Part shown: positions 3,004 through 6,976 of the stretch, piece after piece
How the letters are laid out: each line of letters begins with the position of its first letter
Numbering within the stretch: the first letter of the stretch is position 1
IMG/VR virus record: IMGVR_UViG_3300043465_000265
Span: 1-27,508 of that record
From: a virus
Direction: 5' to 3' (one strand)
Length of the DNA stretch: 27,508 nucleotides
Position numbers and translations under genes: made by a program
The notes under the pieces: generated by a model
Told to the model about the DNA's origin: nothing
What the model saw: the letters and a program-made list of their open reading frames with translations, nothing else
Database searches by the model: none

Positions 3004-3581
3004 CTGACAATATACTCCCCATCCACAATGCGAAGGTAGCCACGATCTTCAGCAATCCGCAACCAACGCTCTGGCTTGTCTGTCAGATCGACAGGCTCAC
3101 GGCATCGCAGCGACATAATAAATTCCTCGAACCTTGCTTGCGTGTTATTCAAACAAATACGAAGCGCCTTGTCCTTTTTGGTTGTTCGCGGCGTGTAGCT
3201 ATCCAATATCTGTAAGCACTGGCGCGGCGTCGGGAACCAATCAAGCTCTTTGCAGACGCGCTCAGTCATGTAGCTAAGGGCTTCTTTCGTGTAGCCGCCA
3301 AGAATCCTGGCATAGACTGCTGTACGCATCTGTCCGCTTTGCTCGTCTGTGTTCTTGCTTGGCAGGGTCGCCTCAATAAACTGAAGCTGCTTGGCAAGCT
3401 CTTTGGTTTCGACTGGGATGTTCTCGACAGGCATCGCTAAGGCAATCGATCGCAACTCATCGCATTCTGCTATTGTAAGCTCAGAACGGCTCATCAGTTC
3501 GTCCATCCGCGACGTATCGAAGTGCTGCGGCAAAGCCGTTTTGGTTTCCATGTTGATTAGTTGTCCGATTTGCTGTGCCAT
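3000..3581 (-). CDS. Possible replication protein (lambda P-position), unknown family
   Basis: 193 residues, mostly helical. The central part (AVYARILGGYTKEALSYMTE, then KELDWFPTPRQCLQILD) resembles segments found in phage replisome or helicase-loader-position proteins, but I cannot name a family. It directly follows an O-like winged-helix gene, the place of lambda P, so a role in loading the host helicase is inference only. The ATG at 3581 has AGGAA 8 nt upstream but gives a 101-bp overlap with the O-like gene. An internal ATG at 3494 would reduce this to 14 bp. The start is therefore uncertain; the body of the gene is not. Confidence 0.65.
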   Translation of the reverse strand: MAQQIGQLINMETKTALPQHFDTSRMDELMSRSELTIAECDELRSIALAMPVENIPVETKELAKQLQFIEATLPSKNTDEQSGQMRTAVYARILGGYTKEALSYMTERVCKELDWFPTPRQCLQILDSYTPRTTKKDKALRICLNNTQARFEEFIMSLRCREPVDLTDKPERWLRIAEDRGYLRIVDGEYIVR

Positions 3582-4137
3582 TTTTAAATTTCCTGCTGTT
3601 TAAAACCCAAGTAGACCAAGCATCTTGCCAATTTTTGAATTTATTACCTCGCGATCGATGATAGGCAATAAACGCTTCCAAAGTTGTAACGTATATTCCT
3701 GGAGGCCAACTATCAACGATATCACGGCTTGCGCTGCCAATCTTAAAACTCATTGGCTGCCAATCATCTGGCATCTCATGTGCGCTTATATTTTTCTTAA
3801 TGATGGTTCTTGATGGTTTGTCCGCAGCCACTGCGGGGGTGTTTGCAGTTCTCTGCGGGGGTGCAATATCTGCGGTGGCGCAATCTGTGCGGGGGTGAAC
3901 ATAATAGTTACATCCCTTTCCGCGCACTTCTTTGCGTGTCAAATGGCCAGCATCCACAAGCTGCTTTATGACGCCTTGAATAGTACGCTCACCCTTGCTG
4001 CATTTCTTTGCCAGCGTTGCCATAGAAGGCCAGCAATGCCCTTCATCGTTGGCAGAATCCGCCAAAGCAAGAAGCACAATCTTTTGGCTATCCGGTAGGT
4101 CAATGGCCCACACATCCGTCATGACACGGACACTCAT
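3481..4137 (-). CDS. O-like replication initiator/adaptor with N-terminal winged helix
   Basis: 218 residues. Residues about 8-80 form a winged helix-turn-helix of the phage replication-protein type (QKIVLLALADSANDEGHCWP, SMATLAKKC, ERTIQGVIKQLVDAGHLTRK). A flexible Ala/Pro/Thr linker follows (about 85-115), then a C-terminal segment with TLEAFIAYHRSRGNKFKNWQ and a typical glycine-rich, charged end. Such proteins bind the phage origin and recruit replication factors. The start shares ATGA with the stop of the DUF559 nuclease gene. The origin itself may lie inside or near this gene, as in lambda, but I found no clear iterons. Confidence 0.8.
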   Translation of the reverse strand: MSVRVMTDVWAIDLPDSQKIVLLALADSANDEGHCWPSMATLAKKCSKGERTIQGVIKQLVDAGHLTRKEVRGKGCNYYVHPRTDCATADIAPPQRTANTPAVAADKPSRTIIKKNISAHEMPDDWQPMSFKIGSASRDIVDSWPPGIYVTTLEAFIAYHRSRGNKFKNWQDAWSTWVLNSRKFKNGTANRTTNQHGNQNGFAAALRYVADGRTDEPF

Positions 4138-4700
4138 TGTACAGCACCCAAACGCACATCATTATTCGTATTTAAATTAAAAATTATTTCCTCAACGCAA
4201 GCGTGTGGGTCTGCCCATATTTCGCTGCCAGTAAAGCGTAAAACTTTAAAATCTAAACCCTGAAAAAAGCGGTCACGTTTTTTATCTCTAGCAGCCTGTT
4301 CTTTTGTTTTTTCGTGAAAGTCGTGACCATCGCATTCAACAACAATAATTTTTGGTTCAGCAATTTCAAAAGGGCAAGAGCAATCAAAAATTAAAAAATC
4401 AACGCGATAGCGACCTACATCCATTTGCTGATGGACATAAATAGTTTCTTGATTGGGATTTTTGCTCAATCTGGATGTGCCCATCATTTGCATCTGAAAA
4501 AAATCTGTCTGCAATGATTGAGCGTATAATGCTGCAAAAAGCAGTTGCTCAATTGGGCTTTCGCAAAATCGATCGTAACATTCAAAATCTTCTAACAACT
4601 GAACAGCCTGATGATTGATGCAGTCGTTTAAGATTTTGTTGACTTTAGGGCATGACGCAAACTCTTGCGTAATGGTTCTCTGGCGTGTAATACTATTCAC
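4134..4700 (-). CDS. DUF559/Vsr-like PD-(D/E)XK endonuclease
   Basis: 188 residues. An N-terminal helical part with ESPIEQLLFAALY (E51) is followed by VDFLIFD (D101), IIVVECDGHDFH (E122, D124) and the DUF559-like tail RDKKRDRFFQGLDFKVLRFT. This is the order of acidic residues in the PD-(D/E)XK fold. It probably cuts DNA; whether it is a homing-type nuclease or a replication/repair enzyme is open. The start is GTG at 4700, chosen for the strong AAGGAGG site 7 nt upstream. The coding sequence looks richer in A/T than its neighbours, which may point to separate acquisition. It overlaps the O-like gene by ATGA. Confidence 0.82.
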   Translation of the reverse strand: MNSITRQRTITQEFASCPKVNKILNDCINHQAVQLLEDFECYDRFCESPIEQLLFAALYAQSLQTDFFQMQMMGTSRLSKNPNQETIYVHQQMDVGRYRVDFLIFDCSCPFEIAEPKIIVVECDGHDFHEKTKEQAARDKKRDRFFQGLDFKVLRFTGSEIWADPHACVEEIIFNLNTNNDVRLGAVQ

Positions 4701-4730: not shown

Positions 4731-4772
4731 GAGCGGGTTGAGTGCCTTTCCTCTCTTGGGCACTCCCCGCTC
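4731..4772. other. Strong 14-bp stem-loop upstream of the replication genes
   Basis: GAGCGGG (4731-4737) and GAGTGCC (4740-4746) pair exactly with GGCACTC (4759-4765) and CCCGCTC (4766-4772). The only interruption is a TT bulge, and the loop is 12 nt. No T run follows on either strand, so a simple intrinsic terminator is unlikely. It lies 31 nt before the GTG of the DUF559 gene. In the minus-strand transcript its loop exposes a purine-rich AGAGAGGAAA. It may be an attenuator, an RNA-stability element or part of an origin. Confidence 0.75.
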
Positions 4773-4822
4773 GCTCTTACATAACTCAGAATCCGCATTT
4801 GTAAAAGCATTTTATGGCAGCG

Positions 4823-4852
4823 TTGACAGCCAATACGCTGATAGCGTATTCT
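4823..4852 (+). promoter_or_regulatory. Strong plus-strand promoter inside the leftward control region
   Basis: TTGACA (4823-4828, full -35 consensus), an 18-bp spacer, then TATTCT (4847-4852, four of six matches to TATAAT). It points against the surrounding leftward operon. No credible plus-strand gene follows; the transcript would reach a terminator about 80 nt later. Confidence 0.75.
4832..4850. promoter_or_regulatory. Operator-like palindrome over the promoter
   Basis: AATACGCT-GAT-AGCGTATT is a perfect inverted repeat with 8-bp arms and a 3-bp centre. It covers most of the promoter spacer and the first four bases of the -10. Flanking ACAG and CTGT extend it imperfectly. The position fits a repressor site; the Cro-like protein at 5271-5477 is one candidate binder. 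Confidence 0.7.
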
Positions 4853-4858
4853 GTGCGG

Positions 4859-4937
4859 ATTGGTACCTCCTTACCGAAACGGACTTGGGTGGTGTTTGGA
4901 TTGGGCTTTCTCGGTCGCACCACCCATTTTTATTTTG
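4859..4937 (+). ncRNA. Predicted ~78-nt counter-transcribed sRNA (OOP-position)
   Basis: Predicted from a promoter at 4823-4852 and a terminator at 4886-4937. The transcript carries a small hairpin GGUA-CCUCCU-UACC (4862-4875) that presents an anti-Shine-Dalgarno loop, then the terminator stem. CCUCCUU is complementary over 7 bases to the AAGGAGG of the DUF559 gene at 4700. The 3' end overlaps the last few codons of the DUF1064 gene on the other strand. Lambda OOP RNA (about 77 nt) sits in the same kind of place, between the Cro side and the O gene. The 5' end is an estimate from promoter spacing. Confidence 0.6.
4886..4937 (+). terminator. Intrinsic terminator of the predicted sRNA
   Basis: TGGGTGGTG (4886-4894) pairs perfectly with CACCACCCA (4918-4926), with a 23-nt loop, followed by TTTTTATTTTG (4927-4937). 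It is directional: the minus-strand reading has no T run after the stem. It overlaps the 3' end of the DUF1064 gene (stop at 4930-4932). Confidence 0.82.
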
Positions 4938-5274
4938 TCTCACGAAGATCGTGATGCGGGAATAGCGCCTTAAAGACAGCGCGGCGCAAGGGCCAATCCC
5001 TGACAACGACTCCCTTAACGTCCTCAGTCACCAGCATTCCGTTTTCGACATATTCGAAATCAGATTTGTAACCAACGCGCCTGCCATTGGAATGTTTAAG
5101 CTGGCGTCCATTGATTACGAACCAGTATTGCGGGTGGATCATCAAGTCACTTATCTCTCCAGCAGCTTCCAGTGCGTGCAGTTCATTGCAGCGTATAGCC
5201 TCCCGTTTGCTGTCATGGGTGTGACCAGCATTGCATTGCGATTTGACAGCACGATATTTTCCGAAGCGCCTCAT
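4930..5274 (-). CDS. DUF1064 putative nuclease
   Basis: 114 residues. The start KYRAVKS...HDSKREAIRCNELHALEAAG, then GEISDLMIHPQY, DFEYVENG (D72) and TEDVKG (E84, K87), is the DUF1064 pattern. This phage family is thought to have a restriction-endonuclease-like, Holliday-junction-resolvase-type fold. It would act on phage DNA during replication or recombination. Its ATG overlaps the stop of the Cro-like gene by ATGA (5271-5274), so it is co-expressed with the regulator. The 3' end overlaps the opposite-strand terminator of the predicted sRNA. Confidence 0.85.
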   Translation of the reverse strand: MRRFGKYRAVKSQCNAGHTHDSKREAIRCNELHALEAAGEISDLMIHPQYWFVINGRQLKHSNGRRVGYKSDFEYVENGMLVTEDVKGVVVRDWPLRRAVFKALFPHHDLRETK

Positions 5275-5477
5275 GCGTTAAGCTTCTGCTCTATTAGCCG
5301 ATCGAGTGCGTCATTGGCTGCAAGCCATGCGCCTAGCTGTGGTTCAGTGCGACCACTTTTCCAATTCGACAGCGTTACACGAGTGATGCCAGCCTCAATC
5401 GCTATCTTGCAAGCCCTGATTTTATGCGTCTTGGCGTAACTAAAAAAGTTCGCAATCTCGTTTTCTACCTGGGTCAT
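5271..5477 (-). CDS. Cro/CI-like HTH regulator
   Basis: 68 residues. ACKIAIEAGITRVTLSNWKS (about residues 22-41) followed by GRTEP is a clear Cro/CI-type helix-turn-helix. The protein is too short for a CI repressor with a cleavage domain, so a Cro-like role is most likely. It is first in the leftward control/replication operon and faces the ERF operon across a 91-bp divergent region. That region, or the palindrome at 4832-4850, may be its target. No full-length CI repressor is visible in this window. Confidence 0.82.
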   Translation of the reverse strand: MTQVENEIANFFSYAKTHKIRACKIAIEAGITRVTLSNWKSGRTEPQLGAWLAANDALDRLIEQKLNA

Positions 5478-5568
5478 TTTAAACTTTCTTTGGGTTGTGG
5501 ATAAAAAGGGCTTTTAATCTTCTGCAAATTAGTTACAAGGGGTTTGGCAAATAAAAGGAGATACCACA
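5478..5568. promoter_or_regulatory. Divergent control region between leftward and rightward operons
   Basis: 91 bp between two divergent operons must hold both promoters. On the plus strand TTGGGT and TTTAAT with 17-bp spacing (from 5490) is a plausible weak promoter. On the minus strand TTGTAA and TAAAAG with 16-bp spacing is possible; neither is strong. A small palindrome, AAAAG-GG-CTTTT, lies in the middle. The ERF gene has AAGGAG 8 nt before its ATG. Confidence 0.55.
5496..5504 (-). promoter_or_regulatory. Perfect DnaA box (TTATCCACA)
   Basis: TGTGGATAA on the plus strand is the complement of TTATCCACA, the high-affinity DnaA box. It is the only perfect copy I found and sits in the 91-bp divergent promoter region. 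The phage also encodes a DnaA domain-IV-like protein (1825-2073), which makes a functional site more likely than chance. Confidence 0.6.
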
Positions 5569-6129
5569 ATGCCAGTACATAAAAAGCTTAACGAAGCGCG
5601 GATTGCTTTCCACGCATTACCGCTGAAAAAGTCCGGCCATAATACTTTTGCCGGATATAAATATTTCGAGCTTTCCGACTTTGTGATTCCAGCCCTTCGC
5701 ATCTTCAACGATGTCGGATTGTGCGCGGTTATCAGCTTTTCGGAATCCACAGCGTCGATGCACATTGTCGATGTTGAAGATGGCTCGATGGTTATTATTC
5801 ACAGCCCAATGGGGTCAGCCAATCTTAAAGGCTGCCACGAGATACAGAACATTGGCGCTTGTGAGACTTACTCCACGCGCTATCTCTGGACAGCAGCCCT
5901 TTGCATTGTCGAGCATGACGCACTGGATGCTACCACAGGCAAGAGTGAGCCAGCGCCACGCATTAAGTTTATCAGCGATGAGCAGTTTGCTGAATTGCAA
6001 GCTTTGGTAGACCAGACCAAGACCGACTTGGCTTTGCTCTGCAAGCATTACAAAATCAGCGCACTCAAGGAATTGCAGGAAAGCCGCTTCGATGCGGTCA
6101 AGGCTGCATTAGAAAAGAAACTCGCATGA
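5569..6129 (+). CDS. erf: ERF-family single-strand annealing protein
   Basis: 186 residues. The N-terminal block KLNEARIAFHALPLKKSGHN, then FAGYKYFELSDFVIPALRIF and CETYSTRYLW, is the ERF superfamily signature. These proteins coat single-stranded DNA and anneal complementary strands in phage recombination. The C-terminal third (about 130-186) is a separate helical region, likely for partner contact. It is the first gene of the rightward operon. The downstream exonuclease starts inside its stop codon (ATGA), the usual annealase-exonuclease pairing. Confidence 0.92.
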   Translation: MPVHKKLNEARIAFHALPLKKSGHNTFAGYKYFELSDFVIPALRIFNDVGLCAVISFSESTASMHIVDVEDGSMVIIHSPMGSANLKGCHEIQNIGACETYSTRYLWTAALCIVEHDALDATTGKSEPAPRIKFISDEQFAELQALVDQTKTDLALLCKHYKISALKELQESRFDAVKAALEKKLA

Positions 6130-6758
6130 CAGACGCAGCAATCATTCAACGCAGCCCTGAATGGTATGCAGCACGTTGTGGAAGCCTTGGCGCTTCCCAA
6201 CTGGCAGACGCACTAGCCAAGACAAAATCAGGCTGGGGAGCGTCACGCGCCAACCTTCGTGCCAAGCTTGTGGTCGAAAGGCTCACAGGACAGCAGGAGG
6301 ATGGATTTGCAAGTTCTGCTATGATCTGGGGAGTAGAAAAGGAAGATGAGGCTAGAATCGCCTACAGCTTCATGACAGGCCATGATGTGACTGAGGTGGG
6401 ACTATATAAGCACCCAACCATTATAGGCTCTCACGCCAGCCCTGACGGCCTTGTAGGCGATGATGGCTGTCTGGAAATAAAATGTCCGAACTCTGCCACA
6501 CACATAGAAGTGCTCAAAACTAATCAAATCGCGCACAAATATATACTCCAGATGCAATGGCAGATGGCTTGCGCCGATCGTCAATGGTGCGACTTCGTGA
6601 GCTTTGATCCACGGATGCCAGACCATCTAATGCTTTACATTGCACGGGTGCAGCGCGACAATGATATGCTGGCGACTTTGGAATCAGAGGTTGCCGCATT
6701 TTTAGTAGAAGTTGATGAAGACGTAAAAGCGTTATCAAAACTAGGAGACCAATCATGA
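6126..6758 (+). CDS. YqaJ-like (lambda exonuclease family) recombination nuclease
   Basis: 210 residues. The core motifs of YqaJ/lambda Exo enzymes are present in order: SPEWYAARCGSLGAS near the start, IWGVEKEDEARIAY (E71, E75), SHASPDGLV (D107) and CLEIKCP (E117, K119), then the helical YILQMQWQMACADRQWCDFV. It should resect double-stranded ends to make 3' single strands for the ERF protein. Length is normal for the family. ATGA overlaps link it to both neighbours. Catalytic residues look intact. Confidence 0.93.
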   Translation: MTDAAIIQRSPEWYAARCGSLGASQLADALAKTKSGWGASRANLRAKLVVERLTGQQEDGFASSAMIWGVEKEDEARIAYSFMTGHDVTEVGLYKHPTIIGSHASPDGLVGDDGCLEIKCPNSATHIEVLKTNQIAHKYILQMQWQMACADRQWCDFVSFDPRMPDHLMLYIARVQRDNDMLATLESEVAAFLVEVDEDVKALSKLGDQS

Positions 6759-6976
6759 CACAGAACGAAAGAGTTTTCGATCACTTGCGTAGCGTTGGGC
6801 CAATCCGCCCAATGACTGCATTAAATGACCTTGGCATCTATCGCCTTGCATCGCGCATTAATGATCTGCGAAAGGCTGGGCATAAGATTAAAACCAAAAA
6901 GGTTGAGGTGGTCAATCGCTGGGGTGAGTCATCTTACATCGCTGAGTATAGCCTGGAACTTGAAGATGCTGCCTAA
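6755..6976 (+). CDS. Small winged helix-turn-helix protein (HTH_39-like)
   Basis: 73 residues. RVFDHLRSVGPIRPMTALND, then YRLASRINDLRKAGHKIKT, followed by a beta wing with SSYIAEYSL, matches the small phage winged-helix proteins of the HTH_39 type. Many phages carry one in the recombination or replication operon; the exact job is unknown and may be local DNA binding or regulation. It begins inside the exonuclease stop (ATGA) and overlaps the next gene by 11 bp. Confidence 0.82.
   Translation: MTQNERVFDHLRSVGPIRPMTALNDLGIYRLASRINDLRKAGHKIKTKKVEVVNRWGESSYIAEYSLELEDAA

Follow-up and report, generated by a model that had tools for sequence, protein, structure and literature searches.

The window, that is, the whole stretch of 27,508 nucleotides that was analysed, is a 27.5-kb IMG/VR phage record. 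It carries P22-like structural genes, for head closure, DNA transfer and the tail spike, whose nearest relatives are at 45–69% identity, and no close relative of the window was found in the phage collection. The leftward genes lie in the order HTH, DUF1064, cassette interval, DUF559/MTES_1575-like gene and O-like initiator. The first gene of the leftward operon encodes a Cro-like HTH protein (5271–5477, minus strand) and has a leader without GGAG. It is followed by a DUF1064 / Holliday-junction-resolvase-like gene (4930–5274, minus strand), the constant neighbour of the cassette, whose stop codon lies under the U-tail of the small RNA described below. Beyond the cassette are a DUF559/MTES_1575 endonuclease-like gene (4134–4700, minus strand), which has an AAGGAGG leader and is not conserved at this place, and the gene for an O-like replication initiation protein (3481–4137, minus strand; phrog_1032, phrog_391). 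The rightward operon, on the plus strand, carries the ERF recombinase gene (5569–6129), followed by a YqaJ exonuclease gene, a gene at 6755–6976 (gene 6755), and NinB-like and SSB-like genes.

The cassette lies on the plus strand. It begins with a sigma-70-type promoter (4823–4852), recognised from its sequence and from the spacing of TTGAC in relatives, in which a −35 TTGACA (4823–4828) and a −10 TATTCT (4847–4852) are separated by an 18-bp spacer. The small RNA is placed at 4857–4937 on the plus strand by its fold, its homologues and a covariance model; its start at about 4857–4859 was inferred from the position of the −10 element, and its end was placed in the T-run. The 5′ hairpin, UUGGUA-[CCUCCU]-UACCGA (4860–4877, plus strand), exposes an anti-Shine-Dalgarno (SD) loop. 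An intrinsic terminator follows (4886–4936, plus strand), identified by sequence and fold and consisting of a 9-bp stem with an inner hairpin (UGGGUGGUG...CACCACCCA, 4886–4926) and then TTTTTATTTT (4927–4936); the scanner missed it on account of a loop of more than 8 nt. The RNA overlaps the coding end of DUF1064 by the U-tail only (about 4930–4936). The original prediction had placed a promoter, a CCUCCU hairpin, a 9-bp terminator stem and T-runs here, and all are present at the positions it gave. It had drawn the first hairpin as GGUA-CCUCCU-UACC; the anti-SD loop is as described, and the stem is of 6 bp rather than 4 bp. The same prediction likened the position to that of λ OOP RNA, and the cassette is indeed counter-oriented between the HTH and DUF1064 genes on one side and the O-like initiator on the other.

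The RNA at 4857–4937 folds with an energy of −30.1 kcal/mol (z = −3.7), and none of 200 shuffled sequences was as good. The CCTCCT string alone is unremarkable, occurring nine times in the window where 7.4 are expected.

The promoter spacer contains an 8-bp perfect inverted repeat, AATACGCT-GAT-AGCGTATT (4832–4850, no strand assigned). An operator reading was rejected for the cassette at large, as the repeat has one copy in the window and is absent or degraded in many relatives; it is possible that it serves as an operator in the window's subgroup only. Six of 100 shuffled sequences yielded such a repeat within three mismatches.

Two other hairpins were observed. The inner hairpin of the terminator, TTTGGATTGGGCTTTCTCGGTCG (window 4895–4917), is letter-for-letter identical in about 10 relatives while the outer stems differ (GGGTGGTG, GGGCAGTG, AGGCGGCG). 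It is doubled, with changes, in locus L034, and contigs L329 and L335 have its core in another hairpin, away from any cassette, as if it were a small module moving between terminators. The second, a strong hairpin GAGCGGGTTGAGTGCC...GGGCACTCCCCGCTC at window 4731–4776, immediately precedes the leader of the leftward gene that lies downstream and is conserved in nearly all relatives, those without the cassette included. Together with CTTTTACAAA...TTATGTAAG upstream, it may represent a leftward promoter and a 5′-end hairpin.

Conservation and covariation of the cassette

With the DUF1064 protein as query, 63 viral loci were retrieved. These were combined with the window and five entries from other searches, which partly repeat the same contigs, to give 69 oriented DUF1064 entries, and the cassette was found 3′ of DUF1064 in 64 of them. 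It is separated from DUF1064 by an insertion in L062, and L052, L057, L058 and L061 are without it. L062 and L061 both have several hundred extra bases between DUF1064 and the next gene, possibly an inserted gene; the cassette lies beyond it in L062, and L061 has none. A search by pattern, in which the terminator was fixed, returned 55 stretches, all adjoining DUF1064, and no cassette without DUF1064 was found among these 55 matches. When the pattern-found loci were added, 45 distinct RNAs could be counted. Neither a DUF1064 relative nor the cassette was found in 84,980 bacterial and archaeal species genomes. One 68.9-kb record (G017, IMGVR_UViG_3300042314_000177) has two cassettes, unlike each other and separated by about 35 kb, and may be a join of two related phages.

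The promoter keeps a fixed distance from the loop. TTGAC lies 41–44 nt upstream of the loop CTCCT in 61 of 64 loci, compared with 0.6% at random positions, and a TATnnT-like −10 element follows at 17–18 bp in nearly all loci; the three loci outside the rule have a different promoter region. Alignment of related phages had been proposed as a check on the RNA. CUCCU is invariant in all 45 distinct RNAs, as are the stem GG and the T-run, while neighbouring positions of the loop and stem vary. In the terminator stem, both partners of a pair have changed (UA to CG in five cases, GC to AU in four and GC to AU in one), with 100% of the cells paired. Two-sided cells numbered 12, against 1.8 by shuffling. 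The covariation score of 0.193 (versus 0.146) was reached by none of 500 shuffles, and slid structures scored 0.07 or less. In most relatives the RNA is shorter, at about 50 nt, and its terminator is capped by C(UUCG)G; the window carries a version with a longer terminator. A covariance model gave 64.2 bits at the site and 10 bits for the next best position in the window, the window being among the model's own sequences.

The alignment also indicates which strand is structured. Cells of the 5′ hairpin comprised 219 Watson–Crick pairs, 34 G-U pairs, 4 A-C and 13 others. The 34 G-U pairs would be 34 mismatches on the other strand, and the structured molecule is therefore the plus-strand RNA. The plus-strand T-run and the UUCG cap point the same way.

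These comparisons bear on the view that there is no RNA gene here, and that a promoter-like string and a terminator insulate the leftward operon or have come together by chance. The promoter match alone is indeed at chance level (four such sites in 2.4 kb, with 2.9 expected). The conserved promoter spacing, invariant loop, covarying stems and plus-strand polarity speak against this view, which we regard as barely credible. It is the comparison across relatives, with its distinct versions, invariant loop, promoter spacing and covariation, that raises the cassette above chance. On this comparative evidence, the cassette very probably encodes a real, conserved plus-strand small RNA, and the original prediction of a plus-strand RNA with an anti-SD loop is borne out by the invariant CUCCU, the G-U polarity and the fixed TTGAC spacing.

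Relatives without the cassette

Six relatives with ERF proteins of about 80% identity or more had no cassette in the sequence searched, and no cassette match was found in the more distant ERF relatives searched. The cassette-less relatives included in the DUF1064 tree are scattered, suggesting several independent losses; this was rejected, as all six form one fully supported clade in the ERF tree. The absence is best read as one loss, or as a lineage that never had the cassette, combined with exchange of DUF1064 by recombination. Relatives lacking the cassette had been named in advance as evidence that would count against the RNA. They exist, and, as a single clade in the ERF tree, they do not refute it.

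Distances between the RNA sequences follow those of ERF and HTH (partial r = 0.51 and 0.50, respectively) and not those of the adjacent DUF1064 (0.04); they also track YqaJ. The tracking of ERF and HTH may reflect a shared backbone history and not function. The DUF1064 tree conflicts with ERF, HTH and the RNA around it, which suggests that DUF1064 is a single gene frequently exchanged.

Candidate targets and proposed mode of action

The RNA has a conserved unpaired loop complementary to the SD sequence, a feature of small RNAs that block ribosome binding sites in trans, and it probably acts through anti-SD pairing. Any strong SD can be bound by such a loop, which makes the choice of target from the phage genome alone uncertain.

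The original prediction had named the replication operon as the controlled one, on the basis of a 7-base match to the AAGGAGG of the gene at 4700. This SD stands at the GTG start in the window and forms a duplex with the RNA of −13.6 kcal/mol. An SD match of 6–7 nt would be expected of any anti-SD loop. Among readable leaders of cassette-bearing loci, GGAG is kept in 36 of 58, the other 22 having become GGAAAGGC or similar; L002, L003 and L008 have the same RNA core and a leader without GGAG; and GGAG is present in three of four readable leaders of cassette-less loci. Moreover, a DUF559/MTES_1575-like gene occupies this place in the window and one relative only. This claim is not upheld by the alignment, and the gene at 4700 is a very improbable target.

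Among candidate targets in the phage, the leader of the ERF recombinase gene, AAAAGGAGATACCACAATG (5549–5571, plus strand), is the best conserved. AAGGAG is present in this leader in 67 of 67 cassette-bearing loci, and GGGAG in four of six cassette-less ones; because the latter loci form one clade, the difference counts as one event, for which drift may account. The mean duplex energy between leader and RNA is about −17 kcal/mol, and cognate pairs had no advantage over reshuffled RNA–leader pairs. We tentatively put ERF forward as a main target, while considering it somewhat more probable that it is not.

The second candidate is the leader of gene 6755, CTAGGAGACCAATCATG (6739–6757, plus strand), which forms a duplex of −17.3 kcal/mol. 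It has GGAG in 46 of 55 loci with the cassette and in none of five without. Here cognate pairs were better than reshuffled ones, only 0.2% of shuffles being as good, for one of ten genes tested. When pairing was compared with shuffles of the context that keep the SD, it was somewhat better for ERF (mean z = −1.2) and gene 6755 (−0.8), and not for four other genes. In that comparison, AAACC leaders occurred only with GGUU RNAs, in three of six distinct pairs versus none of 19 (hand count). A 57-aa basic protein gene, which headed the duplex ranking of gene families, was rejected since its leader is variable in relatives.

In the target candidates, ACCA (or UCAA) stands within a few bases after the SD and is able to base-pair with the RNA's UUGGU arm. 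SD-plus-ACCA starts numbered 28 of 312 in cassette-bearing genomes and none of 101 in cassette-less contigs. Collapsed to gene families, the counts were 9 of 134 and 0 of 62 (p = 0.06), with 7.2 expected from shuffling, so that these figures give only a hint of an SD-plus-ACCA regulon.

The RNA might instead be aimed mainly at host mRNAs, or at many SD-led mRNAs at once, its loop imitating the CCUCC at the 3′ end of 16S rRNA so as to favour phage messages. The phage's own early leftward genes, whose leaders lack GGAG, would then escape, and the HTH and DUF1064 leaders are without GGAG in all 73 loci. The loop is the invariant core of the anti-SD motif; alphaproteobacterial anti-SD small RNAs such as NfeR1 hit many host mRNAs (PMC7143759); and, ERF excepted, no single phage leader keeps a perfect partner. 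Against this, phage operons with strong SDs (ERF, SSB-like 7981 and 7736) would be hit too. We consider such a host-directed or global blocker possible and rather less than even in probability. More speculative still, and distinctly unlikely in our view, is the proposal that virulent phages use a minimal 50-nt decoy of the anti-SD end of the ribosome, with an SD-plus-ACCA code by which selected mRNAs would open the hairpin through strand displacement, so that phage and host translation is re-ranked during infection.

The position of the cassette raises a further alternative, that of an OOP-like cis antisense RNA. Control of DUF1064 or of the replication genes would then come from transcription that crosses the leftward operon's end, or from full pairing with leftward read-through mRNA and its cleavage by RNase III. 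The order of HTH, resolvase, small RNA, variable gene and O-like initiator, with the RNA counter-oriented, resembles the OOP arrangement, and a leftward read-through RNA would be fully complementary to the small RNA. However, OOP overlaps 52 nt of cII, on which it acts as a cis antisense RNA (PMC5869508), whereas the overlap with DUF1064 is of a few nucleotides, and neither the invariant CUCCU loop nor the plus-strand-specific G-U pairs would be needed for pure cis pairing. Furthermore, 13 contigs of 32–38 kb yielded no tyrosine integrase, leaving no obvious lysogeny decision to control, and for this reason the lysis–lysogeny role of OOP is unlikely to apply here. Cis antisense control as a whole appears unlikely.

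The reading that we prefer, and consider likely, is that the phage carries a small RNA gene, complete with promoter and terminator, whose product blocks translation in trans through its anti-SD loop, the ERF operon leader being the likeliest phage target. The RNA would be transcribed from its own promoter and stop at the terminator, giving a molecule of 50–80 nt with CUCCU presented in a short hairpin at the 5′ end. CUCCU would pair with the AGGAG SD of mRNAs in trans, so that 30S binding is presumably blocked. Pairing could be extended when ACCA or UCAA after the SD of the target takes over the UUGGU arm, opening the hairpin by strand displacement; the target sequence would in this respect copy the RNA's own 3′ arm. 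Within the phage, the likeliest target would be the leader of the ERF–exonuclease recombination operon (ERF and possibly gene 6755), and host mRNAs are possible targets as well.

Comparison with known RNAs

Phage small RNAs with solid comparative support are few, and those described come mostly from temperate phages. Dozens of uncultured P22-like phages have kept the present RNA, whose strand is defined and whose ends are predicted, and clear predictions that can be tested follow for its loop and for the ERF leader. If our reading is true, it would be an RNA gene in the OOP position that uses anti-SD pairing in trans, in phages that are apparently not temperate.

Neither the window nor any of four relatives matched an Rfam family at its gathering score. 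SorY (RF02651) gave a weak match over 4832–4932, with UACCUCC aligned, of 24.7 bits where the gathering score is 111; membership was rejected, as the score is far too low and the aligned 5′ stem falls in the promoter of the small RNA. No published description of an anti-SD small RNA family in phages like these was found in a limited literature search.

The RNA resembles λ OOP in its length of about 80 nt, in having its own promoter and terminator, and in being counter-transcribed between early regulator genes and an O-like gene. Unlike OOP, it barely overlaps the neighbouring gene, which is resolvase-like and not cII, and it has an anti-SD loop. It shares with the cuckoo/αr14 RNAs (NfeR1, SmelA075, SmelA099) an invariant anti-SD loop, variable stems and a sigma-70 promoter. 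In those RNAs, known from bacterial genomes, CCUCCUCCC recurs in each of three or four hairpins (PMC3927594, PMC10746234), whereas the phage-borne RNA has a single anti-SD hairpin, with CUCCU/CCUCCU, and a terminator. It is not a cuckoo/αr14 RNA, and membership of the 'cuckoo' RNAs, which the original prediction had brought in for comparison, is not supported.

P22 sar RNA and P1 c4 RNA, small antisense RNAs likewise encoded by phages, keep translation of a phage mRNA from being initiated (PMC12197685). They act on the antirepressor gene ant and differ from the present RNA in place and sequence; no ant gene or immI-like arrangement came to light here, in an analysis not directed at these. SprD and SprX, from Staphylococcus aureus islands, and DicF, from the Qin prophage, are RNAs of mobile elements that inhibit translation by pairing with mRNAs, and SprD and SprX do so by masking the ribosome binding site (PMC9266662, PMC12197685). 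They differ from the phage RNA in that SprD and SprX are longer, DicF is processed from an operon transcript, and all have known host targets and unrelated sequences. The RNA is best described as a new phage family of the known kind that blocks ribosome binding sites.
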